Positions 3,111 through 61,210 of a DNA stretch of 64,000 nucleotides are shown piece after piece. The stretch spans positions 47,857,748-47,921,747 of the forward strand of contig NC_092688.1 in NCBI RefSeq assembly GCF_964275005.1, written 5' to 3'. The first letter of the stretch is position 1; each line of letters begins with the position of its first letter. The notes beneath the pieces were generated by a model, which saw only the letters and a program-made list of their open reading frames with translations, was not told where the DNA came from and did not search any database. Source of the stretch: Diadema setosum (taxonomy: Eukaryota; Echinodermata; Echinoidea; Diadematoida; Diadematidae). A program made the translations under genes and the position numbers.

Positions 3111-3433
3111 TTAAAGGGCGGGTCTTTTAATTTTATAATGCATGATCATATGAAAATACTGTGTCAATACTATTAGAAATCGCATATACTTTTCTTCAAA
3201 GAGATCTGTGAACTTCAAAAAACTCAGTTGAAATCGCCTAAATCGCTCATTTTTCGGGTAGTCGGGAACGCCCCCAGAAAAAGCAAGGACCGGTCACGTG
3301 CCTTGTCAGGTGACACTGTGACGCACCAACAGGAACTCATAGTGCGACTGTCTCGCCTAAACTGTACTTCACAGTGCAGGGATCTTGTGTACCGGGGTAT
3401 TTGTAGGAAAGTTGGAGAAAGTATTTCAAGAAA

Positions 3434-3799
3434 ATGCCGAGGAAGTGTGCCGTCATCACCGCAGCAAAGACACAAAAGATGGGGTGTAAGTCTGCACAAC
3501 TTCCCTAAAGATGACGCTACTCGAAAAAATTGGGTTCGTTGAGAATCATTTGCTGACGCGAGCCCAGTGGGATAGGTCCCTTCTACTACGATGTACATTA
3601 CTACGCACTAGGTTGTACAGCCTCGTATGGAGTGATCGCTTGTAGTGGAGCTAAGTAGTGCTGTATACTCGGCTAGGATTTGCGCCCAAAAAGAGGATCC
3701 TGCAGCCCATCCAAGCTGGAAAATGGAAGCCAAACTCATCGTCAGAGAGCTGAAAAACAAAGCGGATCAGCAGTTCTGAAGCTGGATCAGAGAAAGCGG
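3434..3799 (+). pseudogene. THAP-like zinc finger remnant, possible first exon of transposase
   Basis: ATG at 3434 reads MPRKCAV, the usual opening of a THAP domain (M-P-x-x-C). After a frame change the sequence continues VSLHNFPKDDATRKNWVR, a close match to the THAP core (SxHxFPxDxxxRxxWv). After another frame change the frame holds basic, Lys/Arg-rich sequence and meets a good splice donor (CGG|GTATGT, 3799/3800). The second zinc-binding Cys and the C-x2-H pair are not evident. THAP domains are DNA-binding modules of P-element and Kolobok transposases, so the likely original role was end recognition. As it stands it cannot encode a continuous domain. Confidence 0.6.
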
Positions 3800-4858
3800 G
3801 TATGTTTTGCCACTGTGTAGACGACTCTTATTATACAGTAGCTATCGTACATGTACCGTAACTATACACAGCCCAGTCGCTGCAATAATCGCGACAGGGT
3901 TCGCACGGCGTCTGGTCGGCCTATAATTGTTGTATCACTACTAACAGTTTCACGGTTTCGATAGGTTGATAAGCTTCGTCTGTAGCGTTTTGAGTGGAAC
4001 ATCACTCAATGTCAGTAAAATTAAGATCATGGAGGGATTTTAACGTACTAGTATAAGTCAAGTTGTGTGCTCATTAAATCGTACTATACTATGAAGTGAA
4101 CACCTCTAACGTTCAATACCAGACCTAAAATTTATCGAAGATTAGTAAGACATTCACTACAACACAGTTACATCGGTACCTGCATGTAGCTATCGATTCT
4201 AGATACCACGTAGTACTTGCATGGGCATATGGGGTCAACAGTTACCAACTGAGACCGCGTACCAGCCAGCCAGCCGGGCTGGCTGGCTCTGTATATTTTC
4301 ATCGCTGCTACATTAGAAGGCTTATCAATCATACATATTCAGTAACAGTTAATTCTATGACTCTGACTTCTGCTATGACAGCCTTGCTTCCCCATTGAGC
4401 TCTAAAACTTGTAGCCGAATGGTTGGATGGTGTGTTCCAAAACATATTATTAGATTGAATTGATCCAGGACTGGCCATTATTGTTTGTCTTCACTTGCCC
4501 ATAAGGCAAGTGAAATCTTCAATGTCCATTTTTTTTTCTTGCCCCAAAATGTTGCTTATATTAGTTGACTAATGTAATGCGATTTCATATTTTACATGTG
4601 GAAAAAAAAAGTCACTTTCCTATCAGACAAGGAACTGTCTGCAGTCAGTTATTTTCAGTTGTCATCATTACAATTTCACTTGCCCTGGTTATGTGGGGAA
4701 GTACCGGTACTAATGGCAGTCATTATTTGTGATTACCGGTATTTGTTTTTCCCAAGAGTTCCTACATGCATCTAGTTAACCACATTCTTGCAGGCCTACA
4801 TAGACAATTGAAAAAAAAATTCAATTCCTCTCTGTGCCATTATTACATGTACTTACAG

Positions 4859-4984
4859 GGTTCATCTGGCAGCATTGCACTACAGTGTACTACACAAATT
4901 CTGACAGGCAGTGAGCTCGATAAGAGGTGCAACAGGAGATCTGCTCTACCGGATTGTGAAGACGAACAATCCTGGCTCTTCTAG
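4859..4984 (+). other. Candidate exon downstream of the THAP remnant
   Basis: An acceptor (TTACAG|GG) at 4858 opens a 41-codon frame beginning GSSGSIALQC and ending at TAG 4982-4984. It would join in phase to the CGG codon at the end of the THAP-like exon. No domain is recognised. Support is only splice-site logic, so confidence is low. Confidence 0.25.
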
Positions 4985-5520
4985 CGTGAAGGTTCGTAAA
5001 GAACAGCGTAGATATTTTATGCAATATTGGAAGAAAATGAATTCACATTACTCAGAGGAAAATATTAGAATGGCACAATTTGTCAACTACACATTTTATT
5101 ATTTGTTTGTCTCTGTAGAAGCATGGCTTTCTTGACCACTGAGTACACATAAAATGATCAATTTTAAAAGGTCTAGCTATACATTTTCTCTTTTTGGGGG
5201 GTGGGGGGGGGGGCAGGTCTTATGCCTGTTCCACTAATCAGAAGTCATAGAAGGGAGGCAGTCAGTTGTCCATTCTGAAGACCAACACTCCACCTGCCAT
5301 GACCAATGGCTACTTATGCATTCTCAAGTCAAGTCTTTGCATTGAGGAGGGCAAACCCCAATTTTTATATGAATTTGCAAAGATTTTTGATGTCATTATC
5401 AAAGTGTTGGTGTCTGTTCATGACACCTCAAGAAATGTGTTGCTAAAAACCAGTGCAAACAACTTAATTCCATATCTATTTTGTGTGTCCCTTTGTTTCT
5501 TTCTGTTGAATTATCTACAG

Positions 5521-5681
5521 CACAGGTTGATAATGTCCTTTCTGCTGTTGTGGAGTACAATGACAAAACTCCTGCACCCTGCCAGCCTTCAACGCCTCCC
5601 CTTGTGAATGCCTTTGAGTATCATCCAAGGGAGGAAGTTATTGAACATCAAAGGAGACAATTTGCACAGTCTGGCAAATGA
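5521..5681 (+). other. Candidate terminal exon in the transposon
   Basis: A pyrimidine-rich tract and acceptor (TTATCTACAG) precede a frame of about 53 codons with a Pro-rich middle and a charged end (HPREEVIEHQRRQFAQSGK), ending in TGA at 5679-5681. The composition looks protein-like, but no family is recognised and the link to other exons is unproven. Confidence 0.3.
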
Positions 5682-7363
5682 TCTGATGGGTTCAGGAATC
5701 CTTGCAATTGAGATTGAAGTTCATACAATGTATTCAATACATGATACTGTGCAAATAGTGTTTAATTGTTGCAGAATGATGTTTCAGAAGACTATTTTCA
5801 TCTGTTCTTCTGTCAGATGGTAGATACAAACACTCAAAATTTTGTTACACATACCCTGCATTCTTATACCTTCTATTCATGAGTGATCATTTAAAGACAA
5901 GATAAGATCACTGTTGTATTGTGTCTGTATAACGTGTATGTTGCATTTCATCACAAACAATATGATGCCAACTTGATTTAGTGTTTCAAAGATCATTTAT
6001 TTGCCAGTTGAATATTGTCCTTTTAATAGCAAAATCACAATTCATTTACAATACAACAGTCATGTGGATACAAAAGGAAAACTGTATTTTTTTTTTGATG
6101 TTTGAAGCATACATGGCCATTTTTATGGACAGATGAGCTTGCATGCTAACACAATTCTCTAGAGATATTCAGTGTTGTAATGGCAAGTTTAGAAGATTTC
6201 TACATGAATGCTGTCCCACACTATGATTTTACCATTGAATGTTTGCTGTTAAGATTAGAGCTCACTCTTATGATCAAATATTAATATCTCTGACAAGGTA
6301 ATTTAGAATAAAATGTGTATGCATTATAGAACACAACACACTCAAAAAGAGATGGAGAAAAAAATTGTAGTTTTGGGAAGGAATGCAATAATTTACTCTT
6401 GGTATATGATTCACAAATTTATGAAAAAGGAGCACAAGATGTGTGTCTGTAAGGCATTAGCATTTTATATAGGCCCTAATCTTCATCTGACATGTTGAAG
6501 CAGACTGGGGCCCTGTTACTCAAGTTCTGAGACTTGGAATGCCTCCACAGGGGGGGGGGGGGGGGGGGGGGAGGACCAAATTCATAATGCAATGCTAAGT
6601 CTAGTTGGGGAATTATTCTGTTGATTTCTATAATGGTTCTCCATACATAATCATTGAAGTCAAGCATTAAAAGTTAAATAAGCATTGTTTTTTTATGAAT
6701 ATGGTGTAAGGTCTCTTTATGAAAGAACAGTTGCAAGGTCACTCAGTTTAAGAAAATTTGGTATGAATTGATCTTGCTATGACTGGGACTCAGACATTCA
6801 TAATCATTCATATCACATCTGCATGCAGAGGTACTTTTGAAAACGTGCACACAAGCAAACACCCACATGCACATAGATTATGCTCACATACATTCACACA
6901 TTTTTACACATTTTAAAATATTGTGTGAAAGATTGAATAACATCACTCACCTGTACTGTTTTGTATATTTACATGTGCAATACATGTATTATGTTATCCT
7001 GAATTTGAGTTCTGTAATTTCACTGATAGATTTATGTATGAGGAATAAAATCACAAAGCTTTTGATTTAATGTTACATGAGAATGTCTCATAGTATTGAT
7101 ATGAAATATACAGTATGTACATATATGTGCAAAAGATAACTCTTCTGGGCTGATTTGATTTCAAATGTGGATGTCACTCATGCATGCTTGACTGACCAGC
7201 TGCCATTGTTCCAGTGGAATAAATCCCATTTTGTTCCAACATTAGGATATGGAGATAACACACTGGTAGGGTTTTACAATCTCATTCCTGTAAAGTACAC
7301 TCCCCCATCTTTTCCTCATTCCCTGTGACTAATTTTCTTTAGTCTCCTATCTATACACACATC

Positions 7364-7404
<41 letters not shown>

Positions 7405-7890
7405 TTTGCCATACTACATACATACCCACAAATACTTTCAATCAGGCATCATTGGAACATCCCACCAATATGCAAATTACATACAGCCAGATGTACAATT
7501 TCAGAGAAATCTTACGCAAATACATTGTATGTGCATATCTATGAGGGGATATCCATTCCATGAAGGGGGCATCAGACAAACATAGGGCAAAGATATCAAT
7601 GATATATTAGTCCTATGTGTGTCTGATGTTGGTGTGTGTTTGTGCATGTTTGTATCTGATATGCCAGGCCTGGGTATGCATGAGTGTACTGAGGGTGTGT
7701 GTATATGTGTATGTTTTTGCATTTTCATGGGTCTGTATGAAGCTAATCTATTTCTTTTTGTATATAAGGATAAATTTACACTACTGGTACATGTACTGTA
7801 TTACTACAACCCCCATATATATTAAGATCTTGTTATTACTACAGTTTGTCATATCAGTGCTTATAATATTGAGGTTCCACTGAACATGCA

Positions 7891-8327
7891 TCAATAAATT
7901 ACAACAAAATAATACATGATCATTTGTACAGAGAGGCTGAAGTCCAACAGCATGTTTCCCAGCTGTGTGCCTTGATGAGTGGGTGTTGGAAGCTGCATAT
8001 CATCAGTATGACGACATAATGGACAAGGTGTCTGACAAAGTATGCATGTGACTTTCGCAATGTACAAACTTATCTGATGCATTTCTACAACCACGTTCCC
8101 GTTAAGCAGATCGCAATGTGACAAGTCACATTCTACACCCAATATCAGTGCTGCATATACAGTCTTATTACAGCCTATGCAAAATGAAAACGTGTCACTC
8201 TTTCTGATGGATAAGTTTATCACATTTTCCTCACAGCAGACGATGGCAGTAGGACTCTCACATTTTGGCCCACAAATTTCCAGCATCATCTCACCAGTTG
8301 CCGGTGTATGCAACATGTCTTGATCAC
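7891..8327 (-). CDS. Cys-rich exon candidate on the minus strand of the transposon
   Basis: On the minus strand an acceptor with a T-rich tract (TTTCTATATCAG) opens at 8327 and the frame runs about 145 codons to a stop at 7891. The product begins GDQDMLHTPATGEMM and has paired cysteines: CGPKC, CCEE, CIGC, CILCQTPCPLC. This pattern suggests metal binding, but I do not recognise the family. It lies downstream of the P2X7-like gene on the same strand and may be a later or alternative exon. Part of it overlaps, antisense, a P2X7-like fragment on the plus strand (7941-8039), so one of the two readings may be a shadow. Confidence 0.35.
7941..8039 (+). pseudogene. Second, inverted fragment of the P2X7-type domain
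   Basis: The plus-strand frame reads SPTACFPAVCLDEWVLEA, then AYHQYDDIMDKVSDK, directly comparable to FSTVCLGEWVLEAAYHQY of the minus-strand gene at 8893-9881. A donor-like GTATGC follows at 8040. The two stretches are therefore inverted, diverged copies of the same exon part. An in-frame TGA lies just upstream (7938-7940), so an upstream splice join would be needed; none is certain. Confidence 0.55.
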
Positions 8328-8522
8328 CTGATATAGAAACAAAAGTGAAACGAAATGGAATGCAAAAGGAGTAAAGTTTGATAATCCTTTTATATGACAT
8401 CATGTGTTCATCTAGAAATTTATCTTGAGAATAGGATTTAAATTAGACAATGTGAATGGGACCCATGGAGTATGGTAGTCATTATTTTGGGTACCTGGTA
8501 CAACTGTATAATGGCAGCATGA

Positions 8523-8565
<43 letters not shown>

Positions 8566-8892
8566 GTGTAATAATTGACAGTGCTTATACAGCGCATAAC
8601 ACAAAGTGATAATGTCCCTATGCACTCAAGAAATAAAAAATGAAAAAATTATACAAATATATCCTACAAGGCTACATGTACTTTTGCATTATCTACGAAG
8701 ACAGGTCCAATATATTTGAATAAATTACTGGAGTGCAGGACTGAAATCACACATGGTGAATTAGATATTGCATTCTTTTGATGGGTGCAAATGCAAATTG
8801 GCAGTATAAACAGCATATTGTCAAGGGAATATATATAAAATGGCAAATTTGCATTATTTCAGAAGAAAAATTGAAAAATTTGACAAACAATC

Positions 8893-9881
8893 TCACTCAT
8901 TATCTGTGGCATCCGTTCTGGCACCTTCTCCATACTGTTGAGCATATTGGTGATAAGCAGCTTCCAACACCCATTCACCAAGGCAAACGGTGGAAAATCC
9001 TGGGTGTGCTGTTATACAGTTTATTTGAGCATCTGCATGTCGGCCGGTCGTTGTACTGCTCGACCTCCTCTAAGACCGGGTCAGCCTTGTGACAGCACAA
9101 TGACTCCCGTGTTGTAGGCATTGGCACACAGTTCCCACATTGGCACCTGAAGAAAAAAATACAGGTAAATTCAGGTTTACTTGTTGTGTAACTTAATTAG
9201 TTTTAGTCATGTACACGTAGTACTGAGCTGCCACACAATGATAAATTGAGACCAATCCTTCAAGTTCAACATGCCAACTATTGCCACAGAGATTTACATC
9301 TACATGATCTACACCAGCCTCTTCAGTACTTTAGTCTTTAGTGACTTTACTGTCTTGTCCACACATTCCAAATACGTAGCAGTAAGTCAATAAGCAGTAA
9401 CTAACTGTGGCATTGGTAAAAACTTGTACGTTGTAGAGAGTCTAGAGTATTATTACAACTTACAAGCAGCAGTTTTGTACTTCCAACATTTGTGACTTAT
9501 ACTTTTTTTTCTGGCCTATAGATATACTACTAAAATAAGTGAGATACTAAGGTTATATAGAATAATATAGACTCTCAAGTAGATAATTACCAATTGTTAT
9601 TCCCCAATCTTGCGGGCTCGTTGTCATCACCCCGTCCCCTGAGCTTCCTCACCGCCGACTACTCCGGGGGCGGGAGGTGCAGCGTCTGGTTCATGCTATA
9701 CGGGAGTAAACCCAATCGCTGTTGAGGCCGACCAACGCCAACAGCTGCTTCTCCTGCTTGATCGGGGATCTTCGTCCTCACCATCTCGCTCGACATCCGA
9801 CTCTGACTCCCTCCCTGACTCACTCGAAACGGTAGCGGGGCATGAAATGGGCGACTCGATCTCGTCGTCTGAATCCATCAT
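8893..9881 (-). pseudogene. Two-exon gene with P2X7 C-terminal (ballast-type) cysteine domain
   Basis: Exon 1 runs from 9881 to 9591 and exon 2 from 9146 to 8893, with a GTAATT donor and a TTTCTTCAG acceptor. Exon 1 starts MMDSDDEIESPIS and is acidic and Ser-rich; its last codons read RLGNNN and the split codon TGG. The spliced product across the junction is WCQCGNCVPMPTTRESLCC. Exon 2 continues HKADPVLEEVEQYNDRP and, after a frame change, CITAHPGFSTVCLGEWVLEA, ending at TGA 8895-8893. This matches the intracellular zinc-binding domain of P2X7 receptors and related stand-alone invertebrate proteins (WCxCGxC..MPT..E..CC .. C.t.H..F..vCL..wVL..Ay). There are no ion-channel transmembrane segments. 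The second half of the domain is absent, and exon 1 has a stop and frame change, so this copy is probably inactive. Its function in a transposon is unknown. Confidence 0.75.
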
Positions 9882-10922
9882 TTATTCACACGTATCTTAG
9901 AACTAGTAAGCTACACAGGTCAGCGACAGCTAGAGCTGCTAGCTAGAGCTGAGCTGAGGCGAGCGCTAGCGCTATAAGATACTCACGATCGATATAACAT
10001 TCTAACATCTACCTACCTTTTGGATCGAGATATCGATATAAATTTAGACTGTTAACCAGTCACCCGTAACAATATGTCGTTACGACCTGCACACGCACTC
10101 ACCAGTTGCAATGTACATTCAGCAGTTAAGAGGCTGTCACACACGCCTACTTGTCTTGTTTCTTGAAGGAAATGCTTAGTTTTTCCCAAAATGTAAACAT
10201 GATCCGAAATGACAAATTATTATAGGTAAAATACTCGAAAAATGTCCGAGTCGCCATTAAGTCGCTTCTGGAATATATAAACAACAAATTTAAATCCTTT
10301 CTTGGGATGTGCTACTTGCAAAAATTGTGTATTTTGTGATTCAAAAGTAGAAAATCTATCTATCATTGACACGCTAGGGCAATGGTGAGAACTTCTTGCC
10401 TTCGCGGGGGGCTTCCTGTTGGTACGTCAAATCGCTCTAGCCAATCAGCGGACAATTTTAGGGGGCGTTCCCACATTTGGGTGGTTTTAGAGCGATTTCT
10501 GACTACTGGTTACTTTTTAAAATCTAAAAATGTCGAAATCGTGTTAGTGGACCTGTACAGTCTTTGTAGCCCCAATGTTCATCCTAAAAGACCCGCCCTT
10601 TAAAGGGCGGGTCTTTTAATTTTATAATGCATGATCATATGAAAATACTGTGTCAATACTATTAGAAATCGCATATACTTTTCTTCAAAGAGATCTGTGA
10701 ACTTCAAAAAACTCAGTTGAAATCGCCTAAATCGCTCATTTTTCGGGTAGTCGGGAACGCCCCCAGAAAAAGCAAGGACCGGTCACGTGCCTTGTCAGGT
10801 GACACTGTGACGCACCAACAGGAACTCATAGTGCGACTGTCTCGCCTAAACTGTACTTCACAGTGCAGGGATCTTGTGTACCGGGGTATTTGTAGGAAAG
10901 TTGGAGAAAGTATTTCAAGAAA

Positions 10923-11288
10923 ATGCCGAGGAAGTGTGCCGTCATCACCGCAGCAAAGACACAAAAGATGGGGTGTAAGTCTGCACAACTTCCCTAAAGA
11001 TGACGCTACTCGAAAAAATTGGGTTCGTTGAGAATCATTTGCTGACGCGAGCCCAGTGGGATAGGTCCCTTCTACTACGATGTACATTACTACGCACTAG
11101 GTTGTACAGCCTCGTATGGAGTGATCGCTTGTAGTGGAGCTAAGTAGTGCTGTATACTCGGCTAGGATTTGCGCCCAAAAAGAGGATCCTGCAGCCCATC
11201 CAAGCTGGAAAATGGAAGCCAAACTCATCGTCAGAGAGCTGAAAAACAAAGCGGATCAGCAGTTCTGAAGCTGGATCAGAGAAAGCGG
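10923..11288 (+). pseudogene. THAP-like remnant, copy 2
   Basis: Same sequence and same frame changes as the remnant at 3434-3799, so the damage predates the duplication of the element. Confidence 0.6.
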
Positions 11289-12348
11289 GTATGTTTTGCC
11301 ACTGTGTAGACGACTCTTATTATACAGTAGCTATCGTACATGTACCGTAACTATACACAGCCCAGTCGCTGCAATAATCGCGACAGGGTTCGCACGGCGT
11401 CTGGTCGGCCTATAATTGTTGTATCACTACTAACAGTTTCACGGTTTCGATAGGTTGATAAGCTTCGTCTGTAGCGTTTTGAGTGGAACATCACTCAATG
11501 TCAGTAAAATTAAGATCATGGAGGGATTTTAACGTACTAGTATAAGTCAAGTTGTGTGCTCATTAAATCGTACTATACTATGAAGTGAACACCTCTAACG
11601 TTCAATACCAGACCTAAAATTTATCGAAGATTAGTAAGACATTCACTACAACACAGTTACATCGGTACCTGCATGTAGCTATCGATTCTAGATACCACGT
11701 AGTACTTGCATGGGCATATGGGGTCAACAGTTACCAACTGAGACCGCGTACCAGCCAGCCAGCCGGGCTGGCTGGCTCTGTATATTTTCATCGCTGCTAC
11801 ATTAGAAGGCTTATCAATCATACATATTCAGTAACAGTTAATTCTATGACTCTGACTTCTGCTATGACAGCCTTGCTTCCCCATTGAGCTCTAAAACTTG
11901 TAGCCGAATGGTTGGATGGTGTGTTCCAAAACATATTATTAGATTGAATTGATCCAGGACTGGCCATTATTGTTTGTCTTCACTTGCCCATAAGGCAAGT
12001 GAAATCTTCAATGTCCATTTTTTTTTCTTGCCCCAAAATGTTGCTTATATTAGTTGACTAATGTAATGCGATTTCATATTTTACATGTGGAAAAAAAAAG
12101 TCACTTTCCTATCAGACAAGGAACTGTCTGCAGTCAGTTATTTTCAGTTGTCATCATTACAATTTCACTTGCCCTGGTTATGTGGGGAAGTACCGGTACT
12201 AATGGCAGTCATTATTTGTGATTACCGGTATTTGTTTTTCCCAAGAGTTCCTACATGCATCTAGTTAACCACATTCTTGCAGGCCTACATAGACAATTGA
12301 AAAAAAAAATTCAATTCCTCTCTGTGCCATTATTACATGTACTTACAG

Positions 12349-12474
12349 GGTTCATCTGGCAGCATTGCACTACAGTGTACTACACAAATTCTGACAGGCA
12401 GTGAGCTCGATAAGAGGTGCAACAGGAGATCTGCTCTACCGGATTGTGAAGACGAACAATCCTGGCTCTTCTAG
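12349..12474 (+). other. Candidate exon, copy 2
   Basis: Identical to the candidate exon at 4859-4984 (acceptor TTACAG, 41-codon frame). Low support. Confidence 0.25.
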
Positions 12475-13013
12475 CGTGAAGGTTCGTAAAGAACAGCGTA
12501 GATATTTTATGCAATATTGGAAGAAAATGAATTCACATTACTCAGAGGAAAATATTAGAATGGCACAATTTGTCAACTACACATTTTATTATTTGTTTGT
12601 CTCTGTAGAAGCATGGCTTTCTTGACCACTGAGTACACATAAAATGATCAATTTTAAAAGGTCTAGCTATACATTTTCTCTTTTTGGGGGGTGGGGGGGG
12701 GGGGGGCAGGTCTTATGCCTGTTCCACTAATCAGAAGTCATAGAAGGGAGGCAGTCAGTTGTCCATTCTGAAGACCAACACTCCACCTGCCATGACCAAT
12801 GGCTACTTATGCATTCTCAAGTCAAGTCTTTGCATTGAGGAGGGCAAACCCCAATTTTTATATGAATTTGCAAAGATTTTTGATGTCATTATCAAAGTGT
12901 TGGTGTCTGTTCATGACACCTCAAGAAATGTGTTGCTAAAAACCAGTGCAAACAACTTAATTCCATATCTATTTTGTGTGTCCCTTTGTTTCTTTCTGTT
13001 GAATTATCTACAG

Positions 13014-13174
13014 CACAGGTTGATAATGTCCTTTCTGCTGTTGTGGAGTACAATGACAAAACTCCTGCACCCTGCCAGCCTTCAACGCCTCCCCTTGTGA
13101 ATGCCTTTGAGTATCATCCAAGGGAGGAAGTTATTGAACATCAAAGGAGACAATTTGCACAGTCTGGCAAATGA
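13014..13174 (+). other. Candidate terminal exon, copy 2
   Basis: Identical to the candidate at 5521-5681, with the same acceptor and stop. Confidence 0.3.
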
Positions 13175-14856
13175 TCTGATGGGTTCAGGAATCCTTGCAA
13201 TTGAGATTGAAGTTCATACAATGTATTCAATACATGATACTGTGCAAATAGTGTTTAATTGTTGCAGAATGATGTTTCGGAAGACTATTTTCATCTGTTC
13301 TTCTGTCAGATGGTAGATACAAACACTCAAAATTTTGTTACACATACCCTGCATTCTTATACCTTCTATTCATGAGTGATCATTTAAAGACAAGATAAGA
13401 TCACTGTTGTATTGTGTCTGTATAACGTGTATGTTGCATTTCATCACAAACAATATGATGCCAACTTGATTTAGTGTTTCAAAGATCATTTATTTGCCAG
13501 TTGAATATTGTCCTTTTAATAGCAAAATCACAATTCATTTACAATACAACAGTCATGTGGATACAAAAGGAAAACTGTATTTTTTTTTTGATGTTTGAAG
13601 CATACATGGCCATTTTTATGGACAGATGAGCTTGCATGCTAACACAATTCTCTAGAGATATTCAGTGTTGTAATGGCAAGTTTAGAAGATTTCTACATGA
13701 ATGCTGTCCCACACTATGATTTTACCATTGAATGTTTGCTGTTAAGATTAGAGCTCACTCTTATGATCAAATATTAATATCTCTGACAAGGTAATTTAGA
13801 ATAAAATGTGTATGCATTATAGAACACAACACACTCAAAAAGAGATGGAGAAAAAAATTGTAGTTTTGGGAAGGAATGCAATAATTTACTCTTGGTATAT
13901 GATTCACAAATTTATGAAAAAGGAGCACAAGATGTGTGTCTGTAAGGCATTAGCATTTTATATAGGCCCTAATCTTCATCTGACATGTTGAAGCAGACTG
14001 GGGCCCTGTTACTCAAGTTCTGAGACTTGGAATGCCTCCACAGGGGGGGGGGGGGGGGGGGGGGAGGACCAAATTCATAATGCAATGCTAAGTCTAGTTG
14101 GGGAATTATTCTGTTGATTTCTATAATGGTTCTCCATACATAATCATTGAAGTCAAGCATTAAAAGTTAAATAAGCATTGTTTTTTTATGAATATGGTGT
14201 AAGGTCTCTTTATGAAAGAACAGTTGCAAGGTCACTCAGTTTAAGAAAATTTGGTATGAATTGATCTTGCTATGACTGGGACTCAGACATTCATAATCAT
14301 TCATATCACATCTGCATGCAGAGGTACTTTTGAAAACGTGCACACAAGCAAACACCCACATGCACATAGATTATGCTCACATACATTCACACATTTTTAC
14401 ACATTTTAAAATATTGTGTGAAAGATTGAATAACATCACTCACCTGTACTGTTTTGTATATTTACATGTGCAATACATGTATTATGTTATCCTGAATTTG
14501 AGTTCTGTAATTTCACTGATAGATTTATGTATGAGGAATAAAATCACAAAGCTTTTGATTTAATGTTACATGAGAATGTCTCATAGTATTGATATGAAAT
14601 ATACAGTATGTACATATATGTGCAAAAGATAACTCTTCTGGGCTGATTTGATTTCAAATGTGGATGTCACTCATGCATGCTTGACTGACCAGCTGCCATT
14701 GTTCCAGTGGAATAAATCCCATTTTGTTCCAACATTAGGATATGGAGATAACACACTGGTAGGGTTTTACAATCTCATTCCTGTAAAGTACACTCCCCCA
14801 TCTTTTCCTCATTCCCTGTGACTAATTTTCTTTAGTCTCCTATCTATACACACATC

Positions 14857-14897
<41 letters not shown>

Positions 14898-15383
14898 TTT
14901 GCCATACTACATACATACCCACAAATACTTTCAATCAGGCATCATTGGAACATCCCACCAATATGCAAATTACATACAGCCAGATGTACAATTTCAGAGA
15001 AATCTTACGCAAATACATTGTATGTGCATATCTATGAGGGGATATCCATTCCATGAAGGGGGCATCAGACAAACATAGGGCAAAGATATCAATGATATAT
15101 TAGTCCTATGTGTGTCTGATGTTGGTGTGTGTTTGTGCATGTTTGTATCTGATATGCCAGGCCTGGGTATGCATGAGTGTACTGAGGGTGTGTGTATATG
15201 TGTATGTTTTTGCATTTTCATGGGTCTGTATGAAGCTAATCTATTTCTTTTTGTATATAAGGATAAATTTACACTACTGGTACATGTACTGTATTACTAC
15301 AACCCCCATATATATTAAGATCTTGTTATTACTACAGTTTGTCATATCAGTGCTTATAATATTGAGGTTCCACTGAACATGCA

Positions 15384-15820
15384 TCAATAAATTACAACAA
15401 AATAATACATGATCATTTGTACAGAGAGGCTGAAGTCCAACAGCATGTTTCCCAGCTGTGTGCCTTGATGAGTGGGTGTTGGAAGCTGCATATCATCAGT
15501 ATGACGACATAATGGACAAGGTGTCTGACAAAGTATGCATGTGACTTTCGCAATGTACAAACTTATCTGATGCATTTCTACAACCACGTTCCCGTTAAGC
15601 AGATCGCAATGTGACAAGTCACATTCTACACCCAATATCAGTGCTGCATATACAGTCTTATTACAGCCTATGCAAAATGAAAACGTGTCACTCTTTCTGA
15701 TGGATAAGTTTATCACATTTTCCTCACAGCAGACGATGGCAGTAGGACTCTCACATTTTGGCCCACAAATTTCCAGCATCATCTCACCAGTTGCCGGTGT
15801 ATGCAACATGTCTTGATCAC
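15384..15820 (-). CDS. Cys-rich exon candidate, copy 2
   Basis: Same acceptor and same frame as 7891-8327. Conservation between the copies says nothing about selection because the elements are nearly identical throughout. Confidence 0.35.
15434..15532 (+). pseudogene. Inverted fragment of P2X7-type domain, copy 2
   Basis: Same as 7941-8039: VCLDEWVLEAAYHQY on the plus strand. Confidence 0.55.
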
Positions 15821-16015
15821 CTGATATAGAAACAAAAGTGAAACGAAATGGAATGCAAAAGGAGTAAAGTTTGATAATCCTTTTATATGACATCATGTGT
15901 TCATCTAGAAATTTATCTTGAGAATAGGATTTAAATTAGACAATGTGAATGGGACCCATGGAGTATGGTAGTCATTATTTTGGGTACCTGGTACAACTGT
16001 ATAATGGCAGCATGA

Positions 16016-16058
<43 letters not shown>

Positions 16059-16385
16059 GTGTAATAATTGACAGTGCTTATACAGCGCATAACACAAAGT
16101 GATAATGTCCCTATGCACTCAAGAAATAAAAAATGAAAAAATTATACAAATATATCCTACAAGGCTACATGTACTTTTGCATTATCTACGAAGACAGGTC
16201 CAATATATTTGAATAAATTACTGGAGTGCAGGACTGAAATCACACATGGTGAATTAGATATTGCATTCTTTTGATGGGTGCAAATGCAAATTGGCAGTAT
16301 AAACAGCATATTGTCAAGGGAATATATATAAAATGGCAAATTTGCATTATTTCAGAAGAAAAATTGAAAAATTTGACAAACAATC

Positions 16386-17374
16386 TCACTCATTATCTGT
16401 GGCATCCGTTCTGGCACCTTCTCCATACTGTTGAGCATATTGGTGATAAGCAGCTTCCAACACCCATTCACCAAGGCAAACGGTGGAAAATCCTGGGTGT
16501 GCTGTTATACAGTTTATTTGAGCATCTGCATGTCGGCCGGTCGTTGTACTGCTCGACCTCCTCTAAGACCGGGTCAGCCTTGTGACAGCACAATGACTCC
16601 CGTGTTGTAGGCATTGGCACACAGTTCCCACATTGGCACCTGAAGAAAAAAATACAGGTAAATTCAGGTTTACTTGTTGTGTAACTTAATTAGTTTTAGT
16701 CATGTACACGTAGTACTGAGCTGCCACACAATGATAAATTGAGACCAATCCTTCAAGTTCAACATGCCAACTATTGCCACAGAGATTTACATCTACATGA
16801 TCTACACCAGCCTCTTCAGTACTTTAGTCTTTAGTGACTTTACTGTCTTGTCCACACATTCCAAATACGTAGCAGTAAGTCAATAAGCAGTAACTAACTG
16901 TGGCATTGGTAAAAACTTGTACGTTGTAGAGAGTCTAGAGTATTATTACAACTTACAAGCAGCAGTTTTGTACTTCCAACATTTGTGACTTATACTTTTT
17001 TTTCTGGCCTATAGATATACTACTAAAATAAGTGAGATACTAAGGTTATATAGAATAATATAGACTCTCAAGTAGATAATTACCAATTGTTATTCCCCAA
17101 TCTTGCGGGCTCGTTGTCATCACCCCGTCCCCTGAGCTTCCTCACCGCCGACTACTCCGGGGGCGGGAGGTGCAGCGTCTGGTTCATGCTATACGGGAGT
17201 AAACCCAATCGCTGTTGAGGCCGACCAACGCCAACAGCTGCTTCTCCTGCTTGATCGGGGATCTTCGTCCTCACCATCTCGCTCGACATCCGACTCTGAC
17301 TCCCTCCCTGACTCACTCGAAACGGTAGCGGGGCATGAAATGGGCGACTCGATCTCGTCGTCTGAATCCATCAT
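16386..17374 (-). pseudogene. Two-exon P2X7 C-terminal-domain gene, copy 2
   Basis: Exon 1 is 17374-17084 and exon 2 is 16639-16386, with the same splice sites and the same frame changes as the gene at 8893-9881. The shared damage shows that the parent element already carried a broken version. Confidence 0.75.
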
Positions 17375-18103
17375 TTATTCACACGTATCTTAGAACTAGT
17401 AAGCTACACAGGTCAGCGACAGCTAGAGCTGCTAGCTAGAGCTGAGCTGAGGCGAGCGCTAGCGCTATAAGATACTCACGATCGATATAACATTCTAACA
17501 TCTACCTACCTTTTGGATCGAGATATCGATATAAATTTAGACTGTTAACCAGTCACCCGTAACAATATGTCGTTACGACCTGCACACGCACTCACCAGTT
17601 GCAATGTACATTCAGCAGTTAAGAGGCTGTCACACACGCCTACTTGTCTTGTTTCTTGAAGGAAATGCTTAGTTTTTCCCAAAATGTAAACATGATCCGA
17701 AATGACAAATTATTATAGGTAAAATACTCGAAAAATGTCCGAGTCGCCATTAAGTCGCTTCTGGAATATATAAACAACAAATTTAAATCCTTTCTTGGGA
17801 TGTGCTACTTGCAAAAATTGTGTATTTTGTGATTCAAAAGTAGAAAATCTATCTATCATTGACACGCTAGGGCAATGGTGAGAACTTCTTGCCTTCGCGG
17901 GGGGCTTCCTGTTGGTACGTCAAATCGCTCTAGCCAATCAGCGGACAATTTTAGGGGGCGTTCCCACATTTGGGTGGTTTTAGAGCGATTTCTGACTACT
18001 GGTTACTTTTTAAAATCTAAAAATGTCGAAATCGTGTTAGTGGACCTGTATAGAGTCTTTGTAGCCCCAATGTTCATCCTAAAAGACCCGCCCTTTAAAG
18101 CTC

Positions 18104-19855: not shown

Positions 19856-20046
19856 ACCACTCTTCCCGAGGAAGTGCACTTAATTTTGTCACATTTTGGT
19901 GGTCAATGAGATCATTGGCCTGCAGTGAGGGCGTCGGGAGGACCAAAATAACTGTGTTTACAGTCAACTACAGAGGGCCTCCTATTTCTTGTGTACACAT
20001 GCACCATCTCTTAGTCTCGCACCACAGAATATTACCGATTATATTT

Positions 20047-20154
20047 AGGTGATACGCTATCAGCGTATCACCTATTGTGATTGTCAAAATTTCTCTTTTT
20101 AGGTGATACGCTATCAGCGTATCACCTATTGTGATTGTCAAAATTTCTCTTTTT
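20047..20154. repeat. Duplicated palindrome at the start of the composite array
   Basis: AGGTGATACGC, a 5-base loop and GCGTATCACCT form a 27-bp palindrome at 20047-20073. It is repeated with its downstream flank at 20101-20127, giving a 54-bp period. The half-site AGCGTATCACCTA recurs at the 3' end of each composite unit (near 30741, 38179 and 47351), so the array's left and right ends share an inverted motif. Confidence 0.8.
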
Positions 20155-24328: not shown

Positions 24329-26955
24329 TTTTTCCTTTTATTTCTTTTTTCTTTTTTTTTTCAGCAGTTCAGCTTCACACTGATGTCATGAACACAGCTA
24401 CTCTATTTCCCTTGTTTTGTATTGGAGTTTGGAGGTTGGGTTTGCTTCATTAATTTTGTCACACGTAATGTTGTAAATTGCCCCTTGAAACAGTGCCCCG
24501 CTTGCCACCATTCGTTTTCTCTTTCCTTTTCTCTTCATTTGTTCTTGTTATACTGTAGCAGGATATTTAGGAACGTGTACGTTTACATAACTAACAGGAA
24601 TGGGAACTGAATTAATTAACTCTAGTCCAGGTGCATGGCGTCTCGCTGATCTCTTTGGAATTCCAGGTTGTTATTGTTTGACCAAATAACGGAGTTAAAG
24701 ACAGGCAGGGAAGGAAGTGACTTGATATTGCTTCATAATGAGGAATTTTGGGCAACACCTTTCCAAGCGTAGTGATTATGACGGGGTTCTCTGTCGTTTA
24801 TTTTCGTCATGGCTGTTTCACTAGTTTAGCCATAGGTGACATATGTTGTTGGCATTTGGGAGAATAGAACAGATCAGTACCAAACTGGAATAGCCCTATA
24901 AGTAATGTGGTAAGCGTTCAATTTTTTGCATTATCTTTCTTCTTCAAAGTCAGTCACTACTGATCGAAATACACAATAATATGACACGTTCCATTGGTAG
25001 TTTAGGAAAAGGGAGTTAATGCACGATGCAATGATAAATGTGCTACCATTGATTTTAGAGACGTCGTTGTGGTGTGGTACTGGTGATGGTAAGGGAACCA
25101 TAGATTGCTTTTAAAGTAATGAGACAATCATTGGACCTTTGCATCAAGACCGTATTCCCATCTAGAATATAATGCATGTTCGTGCGGAGTTTTTTTTTTT
25201 TTTTTTAATCCTGCCCTTACGAAAAAGTCCTGTGGTACTCCTGTGGTAATTACCACAGGACAGTACCACAGGACAGTACCACAGGAAAGTACCACAGGAC
25301 AGTACCACAGGAAAGTACCACAGGACAGTACCACAGGAATTGTCCTGTGGTATTTTGGGACATACCACAGGACAGTACCACAGGAATTCCTGTGGTATTT
25401 TGGGACGTACCACAGGGCAGTACCACAGGAAAGTACCACAGGACCGGTACCACAGAACAGTACCACAGGACAGTACCACAGGAATTCCTGTGGTATTTTG
25501 GGACGTACCACAGGGCAGTACCACAGGAATTCCTGTGGTATTTTGGGACGTACCACAGGGCAGTACCACAGGACTAGTACCACAGAACAGTACCACAGGA
25601 ACTGTCCTGTGGTATTTTGGGACAGTACCACAGGACAGTACCACAGGTCGATCATTACCACACAGCATTACCACAGGGCAGTACGACACAGCATTTCCAT
25701 GGTACCACAGGAGAGTACCACACAGGATAGATCGAAAAAAAAAAATCTGGGAGAATTTTGGCCACATATCAAGGAATATTCCTGATAGGTGAGTGATGGA
25801 TTTCAGGACAAACATGGCCCTACTTAATAACCTGTCCTACTCCTAACATATAACCTCAAACGAGAGTCTAATGGCCAAGTGCCAATCTAGTCCTATAATA
25901 GATCTATATAGGCATATTCTATTCCTAGGTAGCCATCGACCCTATCAGTACATATATATATGGCCGTTTATCCGTAAAGCATTAAGGCATGGTTACTAAC
26001 TCGATTATACTTTATTATCAAGATATGAAATTACACTTTCATAACAATATCTATTATATTGGGAATAACATAACATAATTAGACAATCTTTCATAAAGTT
26101 CAAAGTAAGTTCCATCATTAATACTTTGACTTTTTAAGTCATATATGTCTTTTCTAAAATCTAGAGTGCTTTTTATGAATATTCATGAGCTATGTAAAAA
26201 TTTGTACCACAGGAGTACCACAGGAGTACCACAGGAGTACCACAGAAGTCCTTATGAAATTTCTCATGCTTTACATCAGGACTTTCACTAAATAGGTAAT
26301 ACTGTAGGAGTATAGGACAAGATAAGTAATGGCAAATCAATTGTTATAATTCACAGCATAACTCATCTATCAATTAATTGAGGAATATTAATATGTGCTT
26401 TTTTGTTTGTATTTTTGTTATAAATTTCAGTTGATTCTGCCTTACAATTTTCCTGTGTGGTACTCCTGTGTGGTACTGCTGTTTGATATTCTCCTGATGT
26501 GATAGTCCTCTGGTATAAAATGTTAAGAAAAAAATATCCTGTAGCATTTTTCTGTGGTACTTACGAATTTAATTTGCTGTGTGGTACTTCTGTGTGGAAT
26601 AGCACCATATTATGATTTTCCTGTGGGATTTTGGACAGTTCCTGTGGTACTCTCCTCTGGTATACATCGAAAATTACCACAGGAATTCCTGTCGTACTGT
26701 CCTGTGGTACGTCTCAAAATACCACAGGACAAGTCATGTGATACTGTCCTGTGGTACTATCCTGTGGTACTTTCCTGTGGTACTGTCCTGTGGTACTGCC
26801 CTGTGGTAATGTCCTGTGGTAAGTCCCAAAATACCACAGGACAAGTCGTGTGGTACTATCCTGTGGTACGTCCCAAAATACCACAGGACAAGTCGTGTGG
26901 TACTGTCCTGTGGTACTATCCTGTGGTACTGTCCTGTGGTACTGCCCTGTGGTAC

Positions 26956-27450
26956 GTCCCAAAATACCACAGGACAAGTCGTGAGGTACTGTCCTGTGGT
27001 AATATCCTGTGGTACTGTCCTGTGGTACTATCCTGTGGTACTTTCCTGTGGTGCTGTCCTGTGGTACTGCCCTGTGGTATTGTCCTGTGGTACTGCCCTG
27101 TGGTACTGTCCTGTGGTACTATCCTGTGGTACTTTCCTGTGGTACTGTCCTGTGGTACTGCCCTGTGGTATTGTCCTGTGGTACTGTCCTGTGGTACGTC
27201 CCAAAATACCACAGGACAAGTCGTGAGGTACTGTCCTGTGGTAATATCCTGTGTTACTGTCCTGTGGTACTGTCCTGTGGTACTTTCCTGTGGTACTGTC
27301 CTGTGGTACTGCCCTGTGGTATTGTCCTGTGGTACTGCCCTGTGGTACTGTCCTGTGGTACTATCCTGTGGTACTTTCCTGTGGTACTGTCCTGTGGTAC
27401 TGCCCTGTGGTATTGTCCTGTGGTACTGTCCTGTGGTACGTCCCAAAATA
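26956..27450. repeat. 242-bp higher-order repeat inside the foldback element
   Basis: The block that begins GTCCCAAAATACCACAGGAC and continues AAGTCGTGAGG starts near 26956, 27198 and 27440, a period of about 242 bp with nearly the same order of CTGTCC, CTATCC, CTTTCC and CTGCCC variants inside. This shows duplication of whole blocks, not just slippage of the 13-mer. Confidence 0.8.
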
Positions 27451-28254
27451 CCACAGGACAAGTCGTGAGGTACTGTCCTGTGGTAATATCCTGTGGTACT
27501 GTCCTGTGGTAGGCCCCCTACTGTCCTGTGGTATGTCCCAAAATACCACAGGATAATTCCTGTGGTACTGTCCTGTGGTATGTCCCAAAATACCACAGGA
27601 CAAGTCGTGTGGTACTGTCCTGTGGTACTTTCCTGTGGTACTTTCCTGTGGTACTGCCCTGTGGTACTGTCCTGTGGTACGTCCCAAAATACCACAGGAC
27701 GAGTCGTGTGGTACTGTCCTGTGGTACTTTCCTGTGGTACTGTCCTGTGGTACTGCCCTGTGGTACGTCCCAAAATACCACAGGACAAGTCGTGTGGTAC
27801 TGTCCTGTGGTACTATCCTGCGGTACTTTCCTGTGGTACTGTCCTGTGGTACTGCCCTGTGGTACTGTCCTGTGGTACGTCCCAAAATACTACAGGACAA
27901 GTCGTGAGGTACTGTCCTGTGGTACTATCCTGTGGTACTGTCCTGTGGTATGTCCCAAAATACCACAGGACAATTCCTGTGGTACTGTCCTGTGGTACTA
28001 TCCTGTGGTACGTCCTAAAATACCACAGAACAAATCGTGTGGTACTGTCCTGTGGTACTATCCTGTGGTACTTTCCTGTTGTACTCTCCTGTGGTACGTC
28101 CCAAAGAGAGGACAATTCATGTGGTACTGTCCTGTGGTACTGTTGTGTGGTATACGTCCCAAAATACCACAGGACAATTTGTGTGTATACTAGCTGTCTT
28201 GTGGTACTGTCCTGTGGAACTTTCCTGTGGTAATGTCCTGTGGTACTGCCCTGT

Positions 28255-28560
28255 GGTACATCCCAGAGTACCACACGAGCCTGTGGCACAGTACCACACA
28301 GTTCCTGTGTTAACATATATTTGTGTGGTACATTGTGTGGTACCAACCAGTACCACAGGGAGTACCACATGAGCCTGTAAAACAGTACCACACAGTTCCT
28401 GTGGTAACATTTATTTATGTGGTACATTGTGTGGTACTGACGAGTACCACAGGGAGTACCCTACAAGCCTGTGGTACAGTACCACACAGTTCCTGTGGTA
28501 ACATTACAAGTGTGTGGTACATTGTGTGGTACCGACAAGTACCACAGGGAGTACCACAGG
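28255..28560. repeat. Second higher-order repeat, about 105 bp, three copies
   Basis: A block with AGTACCACACAGTTCCTGTG, a 12-18 bp variable AT spacer, TGTGGTACATTGTGTGGTAC and AGTACCACAGGGAGTACC is repeated three times. It differs from the main 13-bp array by using 10-11 bp spacing and palindromic pairs. Confidence 0.75.
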
Positions 28561-28577
28561 ACTTTTTTGTTAGGGTG

Positions 28578-34981: not shown

Positions 34982-37370
34982 TTTTTCCTTTTATTTCTTT
35001 TTTCTTTCTTTTTTTCTGCAGTTCAGCTTCACTCTGATGTCATGAACACAGCTACTCTATTTCCCTTGTTTTGTATTGGAGTTTGGAGGTTGGGTTTGCT
35101 TCTTTAATTTTGTCACACGTAATGTTGTAAATTGCCCCTTGAATTAAAACAGTACCCCGCTTGCCACCATTCGTTTTCTCTTTCCTTTTCTCTTCATTTG
35201 TTCTTGTTATACTGTAGCAGGATGTTTAGGAACGTGTACGTTTATATAATTAACAGGAATGGGAACTGAATTAATTAACTCTAGTCCAGGTGCATGGCGT
35301 CTCGCTTATCTCTATGGAATTCCAGGTTGTTATTGTTTGACCAAATGACGGAGTTAAAGACAGGCAGGGAAGGAAGTGAGGTGATATTGCTTCATAATGA
35401 GGAATTTCGGGCAACACCTTTCCAAATGTAGTGATTATGACGGCGTTCTCTGTCGTTTATTTTCGTCATGGTTGTTTCACTAGTTCAGCCATAGGTGACA
35501 TATGTTGTTGGCATCTGGGAGAATAGAACAGATCTGTACCAAACTGGAATAGCCCTATAAGCAATGTGGTAAGCGTTCAATTTTTTGCATTATCTTTCTT
35601 CTTTAAAGTCAGTCATTACTGATCGAAACACACAATATAATATGACACGTTCTACTGGTAGTTTAGGAAAAGGGAGTTACTGCACGATGCAATGATAAAT
35701 GTGCTACCATTGATTTTAGAGACGTCATTGTGGTGTGGTACTGGTGATGGTAAGGGAACCATAGATTGCTTTTAAAGTAATGAGACACTCATTGGACCTT
35801 TGCATCAAGACCGTATTCCCATCTAGAATATAATGCATGTTCGTGCGGCGTTTTTTTTTAATCCTGACGTGGGCATTTTCTTTTTCTTGTTTTTAATTCA
35901 AGAATGTTATATCTAAATTTGTTTCTTTCCCCTAACATTTTTTTTTTGTTGAATATAAAGTTGGACGTTCCGTGACCGAGTAGAAAAGCAGCGATTTAGT
36001 TACAGTTTCAATGCATCTTGTTTACCATCTTCTCTTACATTAAATTGATGGTTTTTATATTTGACATGGTCTGTCTATTTGCCAGTTTATGCTCATAAAA
36101 CACTGCTATAACAACTAATACATTTGCTTCACTTGTCACACGCAATGATATGGATTGCAGTTGTGCATGCAGTTTTCCTTTTGCCACCTCTCGTTTTTCT
36201 CTCCCCCTTTCCCTCACTTTGGTTTTGTTATACTGCAGATGGGAATGATTACAATAACATAACCCAACTTGAGGTAGGAATGAGAACTGAATAAATTAAC
36301 TCTAGGCCAGGTGTATTATAGCGTCTCCCTCATATCTTTCAAATTTCAGGTTGTCATTGTTCGACCAACGGAGTTGAAGACAGGCTTTATGTTGCTATAG
36401 AGGTATCTCGCGCCACATGAATGGAATGCATACGCTGTTTAGTATTAGTAATGAACTTTTTCATGTCCATCCCTGCCAATAAAAGTGTGTTTGACGAGGT
36501 TCTGTGTCATTCTGCCTACGAGAAAACAAAGTTTTATTTTCGCCATGGCTGTTTCGCTATGCGTAGCCGTGGGTAATGGATGTTGTTGGCATGTGGGCAG
36601 TAAAGAACCGAGTATCATGCTATAATACCCCCCCCCCCCCGTTAGGTTCTAAGCGTTCAATACGGTGATATATCTTTCTTCTTTATTATATCAATCACTG
36701 CCGATGGAATTACAGAATTATGTTATGACACGTTTCACTGAAAGCTTAAAAAACAAAGTTTATGCACGATACAAGTAATGGTGCATGAGTCCTATAGACC
36801 ATTGATTTTAGGTGAGAAATTATGATATGCCTATAGTAGGGGTGTCATTGATTAGGAATTAATGAAACGATTAAGCACTCCTTCCACTTCTAACTGTCCC
36901 CTTTGAATGTGTGTCGATCACGTGAGATCGTCATAAATTATCATTCACGTATAAGCTTACGTTCAAAGTGTACTCTTAGTTAGAGGAGACCTATAGTTAC
37001 ATGGTTAAAGGCGATGTCTCTTTCGCTGGAGCCGTACGTTTGGCCCATTTTTCTTTTGCCCTTTTCTCTTTAATTGAGGTATCACTTTCGTCCAGGATAA
37101 ATCACATTCTCATGTAAACAGACTCCCTTGCTCTATATCCCTTGTTTTGTATCGGAGGCTTCATTGGTTTTAATGCTGGTAAATCTCACAGGCTTGTATA
37201 TAGCTGTAAGAGATCTCTGAACTGAGCATTGTAATAGCAAGATTAGAGGGAGTCATATTGGTTATGTAAATAATGGTCAAAGGTCATGTTTTAAAAGGCC
37301 ACTGTTAATGCCAGGATGGTTATAAACACTTAATTGTCATATTTTATTTGTACGTGCCGAGGATCGCTTG

Positions 37371-57821: not shown

Positions 57822-59223
57822 CGCACAATATTTCTGACGTGAGAAGACCTTGTGACGAAGCTTCTTGGCTGTTTTGCTTTCAAGTCTTACGCAACTTTTG
57901 AAACCAAATCAACATCAACGTGTACCGTTATGAAGCCATGCCCATTTTCATAACAGCATGTCACCCCAAAACGAGAATTTTGTGATTTTGTGTACTTTTC
58001 CTTTGAAAAACAGTTCTCTGTCCTGAAACTCATAAAAACTTAATTATTATTATTATTATTATTTTTTTTTTTTTACTATTCATCACTTTTATTGATTGAT
58101 TTTATGCTATGTTGAATATGTTAAAACATATAATCAAACCCCAAAATAGACTCTCAATGCATTTAATTAGTGTTTAAAAGGCTAAAATAAGATGTTGGGC
58201 TTAACTGGTATGATTAATTGTTAGAATTAGAAATTGATAATTTCACAAAATTTTTAGACACTATCCTATAAACTATGAAGTCGGTGTCACGCGTGCCAAA
58301 TTTCATCGCAATTGCGCCACTGTTGGCTGAGATCTTGGGGAGGGCAGAATACCCCCCCCCCCCAATAAAGACATCTAAATGATAATTTTTGGCTTTCAAT
58401 TTTACTTTGCGGCATCCTGTGGTATCCGAAATTATGTTATAACTGTCTGCCTTTTAACAGGAGTGGGATGTACTAAGGAGATGGATGCAAAGATAAAGAA
58501 CCTCAGTGATCCACTAATGAACCTTTCAGAGTCATGGTGATACATGTATTTAGTGACATTACATCTGCCAGCAAAGACAAGACAAACACTATGCATAAAT
58601 GTATGTAGGACCCCTTGCAGTGAAGCACACACGATGCAGTCTTTTTGCATCATTCTATCATGTCTGTTACGGCACAAGTATGCACTGTAGTAAACAGTTA
58701 ATGGAAACACACATATGGACTACATTTTAGAAGTCTTTATGTTAGGGCCCACTTACTTGCAGTGTCATGAGGTTTTTATGTCAGAAATTTAATGGGAAAC
58801 CAGACCTGTATAAACCAGACATGTAAACAATCCATCCTCAAAGAGAAACTTTATAATGAAAGTGTTGAGTGCTTATTTCCGGGTTTATCGGTGAAGTATC
58901 TTCTCTTGAGTCAACAATGCCCAGAATATTTTAGTGTCTGATGGAAGGGGGGTGGGGGGGGGGGTAAAAAAACAAAGAAAAAAAACGGGCGCATCGAGTG
59001 CACCCCCTTTAATTTTGAGGGGAGGGGGTTAATAAAGGAATGCATGAAATCGTACAATGAGCAACATAAATACAAAGAAAACTTGTGTGTGTGTGTGTGT
59101 GTGTTTTGCATGTCAGCTGATAAAACCTAATAGTGGCATGAAAAAACGAGAAAATGAATTTAAGGCTTTTCCCCCCACTTTTTTTTTTCTCTTTTGCTTA
59201 TCGGCTGATCAAACCCAGAAGTG
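57819..59223. repeat. Large inverted repeat, left arm
   Basis: Complementary to 60890-62250 over about 1.4 kb at roughly 90-95 percent. The left arm has about 70 bp extra near 58200-58275 (a gap in the right arm) and a shorter AC/GT tract. A 92-codon frame (58710-58432, minus strand, with CRNRHDRMMQKDCIVCASLQ) survives in both arms, but no family is recognised. The inner end lies within a CAGAGGCGGATCC-type MITE, part of which is in both arms. Confidence 0.85.
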
Positions 59224-59353
59224 TGCGTCCATGTGAGTACAGTTGTTTGTGCATATATGCATTCGTGTTTGTCTGTTTGTATAAAGTTTACTGTGCGACT
59301 GCATGAGTCCATGGCAATATTGGCTAAACCTGGAACGACTGATGGCATTTTGA

Positions 59354-60841: not shown

Positions 60842-60991
60842 GAGGCGGATCCAGGAATTCAGTGAAGGGGGCGCAAAACAGTGGTGCCACTTCTGGGTTT
60901 GATCAGCCGATAAGCAAAAGAGAAAAAAAGTGGGGGAAAATGCATTTTCTCGTTTTTTCATGCCACTATTAGGTTTTATCAGCTGACATGC

Positions 60992-61039
<48 letters not shown>

Positions 61040-61210
61040 GAGGCTTCAGTGCAATGGTAGGGATGATAATTTTTCTTTGTATTTATGTTGCTCATTGTAC
61101 GATTTCATGCACTCTTTTATTCACCACCCCCCCCTCAAAATTAAAGGGGGTGCACTCGATGCGCCCGTTTTTTTCTTTGTTTTTTTACCCCCCCCCCTTC
61201 CATCAGACAC
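60842..61210. mobile_element. One-ended member of the CAGNGGCGGATCC MITE family
   Basis: Starts CAGAGGCGGATCCAGGAATT and GTGGTGCCACTTCTGGG, matching the left end and interior of 19365-19533. A G-run/C-run pair near 61125-61197 resembles the family's interior, but no GGATCCGCC terminus is found on the right, so the right end is lost or diverged. Confidence 0.55.

Follow-up and report, generated by a model that had tools for sequence, protein, structure and literature searches.

The window, that is, the whole 64-kb stretch analysed here (C4:47857748-47921747; the genome measures 912.7 Mb and comes in 102 contigs), carries a 3,362-bp element with inverted ends, two arms of short tandem repeats and an AT-rich centre. 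Its features, in window coordinates, are as follows:

25212..25213, no strand: left copy of the target site duplication, TG
25214..28575, plus strand: whole non-autonomous foldback element, 3,362 bp; both ends recur genome-wide, and an empty site lacks exactly that stretch and one TG
25214..25237, plus strand: left terminal inverted repeat, CCCTTACGAAAAAGTCCTGTGGTA
25228..25711, minus strand: left arm; of its 30 exact cores, 23 read TACCACAGG
25712..26640, no strand: AT-rich non-coding centre, with a pairwise identity of about 97% among 18 copies
26204-26249: small cluster of 11-bp units within the centre
26641..28551, plus strand: right arm, made chiefly of CCTGTGGTA
28266-28558: 94-bp unit in about three copies, in the right arm
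28552..28575, minus strand: right terminal inverted repeat, CCCTAACAAAAAAGTCCTGTGGTA as read on that strand
28576..28577, no strand: right copy of the target site duplication, TG
35860..35871, no strand: paralogous empty site AATCC-TG-ACGTG, in an element-free duplicate of the flanks

The terminal 24-mers differ at two positions when the first 24 bases are compared with the complement of the last 24, which upholds the near-exact inverted ends described in the sequence-only reading. The 9-bp core CCTGTGGTA has 129 exact copies in the element (86 forward and 43 reverse) and one in the rest of the window. The exact 13-mer CTGTCCTGTGGTA is found 42 times (35 forward, 7 reverse), always within the element; tolerating one mismatch gives 75 + 28 copies, and tolerating two gives 83 + 34. 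The earlier count of well over one hundred repeats thus holds for approximate 13-mers or for the core, but not for exact 13-mers. The general layout had been recognised correctly: the left arm lies in one orientation (23 of 30 exact cores reverse) and the longer right arm mainly in the other (79 of 96 forward), around a centre of about 0.93 kb that holds three further cores. At each end, the outermost one or two units are oriented against the bulk of their own arm, and inverted unit pairs are abundant in the arms in general (298 modules with at most two mismatches in 17 copies). Apart from the frames of the array itself, the element has no long open frame. Long inverted arms of tandem repeats, a unique centre and a repeat number that varies between copies together make up a foldback anatomy.

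The element belongs to a dispersed family. A dimer of the word was found at 6,005 + 5,050 places in the genome with up to three mismatches, against 0 for a control read backwards, so the abundance of the word is not due to chance. The left 24-mer occurs at 351 places (at most three mismatches; control 0), a figure that takes in right ends because the two ends differ by only two bases, and the right 24-mer at 179 places (at most one mismatch; control 0). For closer study we took the first 20 further copies among the listed left ends, making 21 with the copy in the window. Both ends are present in 18 of these (17 sampled copies and that of the window), with lengths of 2,702-3,928 bp; L050, L052 and L055 lack a right end within 8 kb; foreign sequence has inserted into L052, and L055 contains a stretch of unknown bases. 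As the 18 complete copies hold on average 63 dimer places each (at most three mismatches), the genomic total of 11,055 corresponds to 175 copies. This agrees with half of the 351 ends, and the arrays of the genome can therefore be accounted for by these elements, with no large free satellite. A family of about 175 copies is modest, and the label of a very strong parasite, given to the element at first, is not supported.

Individual copies contain 42-104 exact cores in forward and 28-49 in reverse orientation (18 copies), with a mean of 105, or some 18,000 sites over about 175 copies. Their centres share a mean pairwise identity of 97% and are 97.1-99.2% identical to the majority sequence, and it is this likeness that makes the family look young. 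With the centre of the window element as query, the best 40 of 352 candidates are 97-100% identical. Among the matches listed, ends or centres occur on 20 numbered contigs. The recurrence of the ends and the variation in repeat number between copies bear out the proposal of a mobile family, and with 351 end places across the genome the ends are clearly not confined to this locus.

Perfect ends were also paired directly, using 96 of the 100 listed left ends (four on C16 being omitted) and the 100 listed right ends. This gave 68 pairs with a median span of 3.17 kb, 65 of which measure 2.1-4.4 kb; the other three span 5.4, 7.8 and 23 kb. The 7.8-kb pair (L059) was considered as a coding copy and rejected: it has instead a reverse-transcriptase gene (RVT_1, E 3.3e-37, in a 1,066-aa frame) inserted in the 13-bp array of its right arm. 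The 23-kb pair is taken as a false pairing, since it starts at L050, the copy without a right end within 8 kb. A search for the 14-base end sequence without the array returned 16 exact places against 29 in the control, and no further family was seen in it.

Just outside the ends, a 2-bp direct repeat is present in 13 of the 18 copies, and in none does the match extend to 3 or 4 bp. Copies L039, L041, L046, L047 and L054 (5 of 18) lack the duplication; a stricter count is 13 of 17, because L045 and L046 are near-duplicates. The duplicated dinucleotides vary: TG in three copies, GA, TA, CG and TC in two each, GC and CC in one each. In addition, the window holds a duplicate of the flanks, 94% identical to those of the filled site, in which the junction AATCC-TG-ACGTGG faces the filled AATCCTG-element-TGACGTGG. 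Read against its paralogue, the empty site shows that the element inserted, with TG as the apparent target duplication.

The two near-duplicates, L045 (C2:13100542-13108942) and L046 (C2:18689151-18697551), have the entire element in common, along with about 120 bp of left flank (99.6% identity), and diverge precisely where the right end stops. In L046, the right flank begins with TAGCTCCATGGT; this is complementary to ACCATGGAGCTA in the left flank of the same copy. From these junctions, the pattern looks like an aberrant transposition or repair event.

Large local duplications are present in the window, and a local satellite or an assembly artefact in a duplicated region could on that ground be suggested for the repeat array. 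We give this practically no credence: among the matches listed, ends or centres lie on 20 numbered contigs, the flanks differ among the copies examined, except for L045 and L046, and an empty site exists. Dispersed ends, target duplications and empty site already refute it.

Both terminal inverted repeats start with CCC. Such ends, together with a 2-bp duplication whose sequence is free, agree with TRC, the animal branch of the CACTA superfamily, and not with ISL2EU, Mutator-type foldbacks or TTAA elements. The piggyBac transposons and other TTAA elements also have ends starting with CCC, and they duplicate a TTAA target; no 4-bp duplication was seen in our 18 copies. SmTRC1 and its Tribolium and Aedes relatives are described as having CCC ends, 2-bp duplications and a Transposase_21 domain (PMC1636069). 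The likeness extends to particulars given in that report: ends start with CCC (Tribolium CCCTAGTAGC...), and a 2-bp duplication accompanies 7 of 14 copies of SmTRC1 (PMC1636069), against 13 of 18 here. The autonomous TRC form is reported to carry Transposase_21 (PMC1636069), the domain found here in the candidate partner on C10. As characterised there, SmTRC1 differs in having a 54-bp terminal inverted repeat with a 15-bp internal repeat and in being protein-coding (PMC1636069). The window element, for its part, has no transposase, and its arms reach kilobase size with more than 100 units.

Taken together, the evidence points to a DNA transposon of the cut-and-paste kind, probably a non-autonomous member of the animal CACTA/EnSpm type (TRC) and foldback in its anatomy, having a candidate larger partner of EnSpm type and a core that is a putative accessory site. 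A foldback, non-autonomous nature had been proposed before and is supported; the class of transposon was absent from that proposal.

Foldback anatomy is better known from other superfamilies, and the CCC ends might be a coincidence in an element of the Mutator/Phantom (as Tm1), P (as Galileo) or ISL2EU type. Galileo has a longer repeat unit and a larger target duplication than found here, no duplication exceeding 2 bp among the 18 copies; FB and the sea urchin TU have other unit lengths and other duplications. Of the two profiles with which we searched the genome for transposases, Transposase_21 and HTH_Tnp_4, the latter, which we take to be a domain of ISL2EU/Harbinger-like transposases, has 9 matches, some of them in open frames of up to 551 aa, and this speaks for another superfamily. 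So does the usual assignment of foldback elements, mostly to Mutator according to one account (PMC4079207). FB, Tetris, Tm1 and TU are described with long inverted arms of tandem repeats, variable in number, and with a predominance of non-autonomous copies (PMC4079207, PMC3169594), all as in the present family. Tetris, however, is built of 220-bp units (PMC4079207), and Tm1 is given 8-10 bp duplications and a Mutator-type transposase (PMC3169594), whereas no match of 3 bp or more flanks any of our 18 copies. Galileo, an element of Drosophila, shares long terminal inverted repeats with internal repeats, which are reported to hold extra transposase binding sites, but its transposase is of the THAP type and it belongs to the P superfamily (PMC3688188). 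Finally, ISL2EU elements are characterised by AT duplications and by ends usually starting with GG (PMC4482050), in contrast to the CCC ends and the varied TG, GA, TA, CG, TC, GC and CC duplications seen here. On balance, membership in one of these other groups is very improbable, and the CACTA/EnSpm assignment is kept in what follows.

The Transposase_21 profile has three matches in the genome. Two of them fall in frames measuring 122 and 114 aa. A 913-aa stop-free frame at C10:38394500-38397154, minus strand, contains the third; for it, hmmscan gives Transposase_21 with an E-value of 1.9e-7 (885 aa examined). At its start, this frame carries an acidic repeat in tandem (EGDSDADP and variants). 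When the frame served as query in a protein search, the best 51 of 241 candidates yielded 46 matches, itself included. Among the matches listed, its closest relatives are pieces on C6, 61-88% identical and part of them with stops, and the more distant ones (about 25-65%) comprise some long frames, such as one of 742 aa without stops at C4:471502 (32% identical); within this listed set, the C10 frame is the longest, not the sole open one, of a wider family.

The C10 frame is situated 7.6-10.2 kb inside a perfect right end (24 of 24 bases) at C10:38386908, which is unpaired among the listed left ends. A left end with one base changed occurs at 10 places, including C10:38422011-38422034 on the minus strand, and the 46-base left terminus with the same change matches perfectly at this site and at 7 other places. 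A second left-end variant pattern has 2 places in the genome, neither of them near the C10 frame. Across 35,127 bp (C10:38386908-38422034), right end, transposase and left end follow in the correct order, with strands that agree. For the longer relative with the same ends and a transposase frame, which the sequence-only reading advised looking for, this span, of which two parts were read, is a candidate; from its ends, strand and content, it is likely the autonomous partner of the family and we treat it as a candidate.

It might be objected that the transposase is unrelated and that the flanking ends come from two separate copies. We find this distinctly unlikely, but the points in its favour deserve mention. 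The parts of the span examined, 38394500-38400500 (L060) and 38388400-38390300 (L061), amount to 7.9 of 35.1 kb; the search with the centre scored the best 40 of 352 candidates and is compatible with a standard copy beside the C10 left end; and 35 kb is long for a CACTA element, the sizes given for En/Spm and soybean Tgmt* being 8.3 and 20.5 kb (PMC2613891). Against the objection, random placement of 175 copies of each end and 15 transposase places (a rounded cluster count from the protein search) produced such an arrangement within 40 kb, a limit set after the span was seen, in 2 of 20,000 trials. Moreover, no centre or array is present in L060 or L061. That these two intervals nowhere resemble the window element and lack an exact core is, on the other hand, a point against the partner reading. 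L061, 1.5-3.4 kb inside the right end, is an unrelated high-copy repeat (1,000 candidates, best 40 scored) and says nothing for or against the status of the span as partner.

Elsewhere, a repeat like that of L061 lies at 13313143-13314891 on C6, between family ends that are 5.2 kb apart (C6:13310048-13315266, paired by hand). This would be a nested insertion.

We then asked how variation is distributed within the repeat unit. Units flanked on both sides by recognisable units were sampled whatever their own sequence; the sample covered 17 copies (L046 was dropped as a near-duplicate), and the anchor was either the exact core (535 units) or the 13-mer at up to 2, 3 or 4 mismatches (628, 809 and 875 units). 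Mean divergence from the master unit is 14-19% per position in the 4-bp spacer and about 1% in the 9-bp core (1.2-1.3% with mismatch-tolerant anchors), a difference of more than tenfold in conservation between the two parts of the arrayed unit. One of the four spacer positions, a T, is conserved to the level of the core, so the site may exceed 9 bp. In unit types that recur in 4 or more copies, departures from the master affect 9 spacer and 3 core positions, although this set is small and, counted as distinct base changes, has 5 of 8 variants in the spacer. One-off mutations are distributed otherwise: with mismatch-tolerant anchors, the spacer has 4 of them and the core 27, 28 or 30 (Fisher p 2e-4 to 1e-4), and with exact-core anchors the figures are 5 and 19, close to a length expectation of 7.4 and 16.6. 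Spacer one-offs that restore a common type escape the test.

A conserved core with freely mutating one-offs suggests a functional site, and the simplest reading would be that the core is kept by selection through rounds of transposition and drifts after landing. Alternatively, the arrays may be passive, the product of slippage duplication in the arms without any binding role, and the core conserved by homogenisation. The right arm is scrambled between copies and the left arm stable, as slippage predicts, and a spacing of 13 bp predominates (670 of the forward spacings). Yet homogenisation by itself would not be expected to protect the core while leaving the spacer of the same unit to vary, and we hold a passive array to be rather unlikely. 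The original suggestion that each 13-mer may be a binding site is supported indirectly by the constraint on the core relative to the spacer; binding itself is putative. In any case, comparing old with one-off mutations within the unit offers a cheap readout of the probable binding site from the array.

For a core under selection, the subterminal repeats of En/Spm, a CACTA element of maize, may provide a precedent. Their motif, like the 13-bp word here, is present in both orientations; it does not form the bulk of the element, as the word does here. In En-1, a 12-bp subterminal motif is reported to be repeated near both ends; the repeats are recognised by TNPA, a second protein, and are required in cis (PMC2613891). 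A short motif repeated toward both element ends is thus common to the two systems, whereas the plant elements, in the same account, have CACTA ends, a 3-bp duplication (ATA in Tgmt*) and another motif (PMC2613891).

We propose the following course of events. An EnSpm-type transposase from a larger relative, for which C10:38386908-38422034 (35,127 bp) is the best candidate, would cut at the CCC ends. The core CCTGTGGTA would be a putative accessory site for a protein of the larger relative, as the En/Spm subterminal motifs are for TNPA. Changes in repeat number during replication or gap repair could then lengthen the arms and give each copy many docking sites. Going further, we raise as a speculation that the family is a parasite of a parasite: the arms may have been selected to capture the binding protein of perhaps one intact master, titrating and silencing this master as a side effect, so that, within the CACTA superfamily, foldback anatomy would reflect an arms race for binding-site number. 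If true, about 18,000 sites in some 175 copies compete with perhaps a single intact master for its protein.

Each of the three ingredients is already known on its own: the CACTA superfamily, foldback structure, and binding sites within repeats of the terminal inverted repeats. In the open-licence PMC literature, we found no report of a CACTA-type foldback built mostly of one word, nor of the 13-mer or 12-mer variants as a repeat. Foldback anatomy has so far been tied mainly to Mutator and P transposases; a CACTA/TRC case, having a candidate partner in its own genome, would extend it to one more superfamily, and would suggest that such anatomy can be expected in any transposon with a protein that reads a short subterminal word. 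With near-identical ends and centre and differing numbers of sites, the family forms a natural series in which the purpose of long repetitive terminal inverted repeats is testable.

Some other structures in the window may be recorded. No Pfam match was obtained for two of its ORFs, nor for 1645-2067. Positions 3111-10605 and 10600-18100 form a direct tandem duplication of 7.5 kb (99.9% identity over 7,501 bp), which either arose very recently or reflects an assembly artefact. At 20044-20154 lies a perfect 54-bp tandem repeat of 2.1 copies, its unit containing the hairpin-like GTGATACGCT...AGCGTATCAC. Between 20143 and 46456 there are several older local duplications, with identities of about 74-97%; the flank pair of the empty site is among them. 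Finally, a second inverted structure spans 58272-61882, where 58272-59084 matches 61882-61068 in reverse at 94%, with a 527-bp self-complementary stretch (73%) inside it at 59380-59906; it is possibly another inverted-repeat element.
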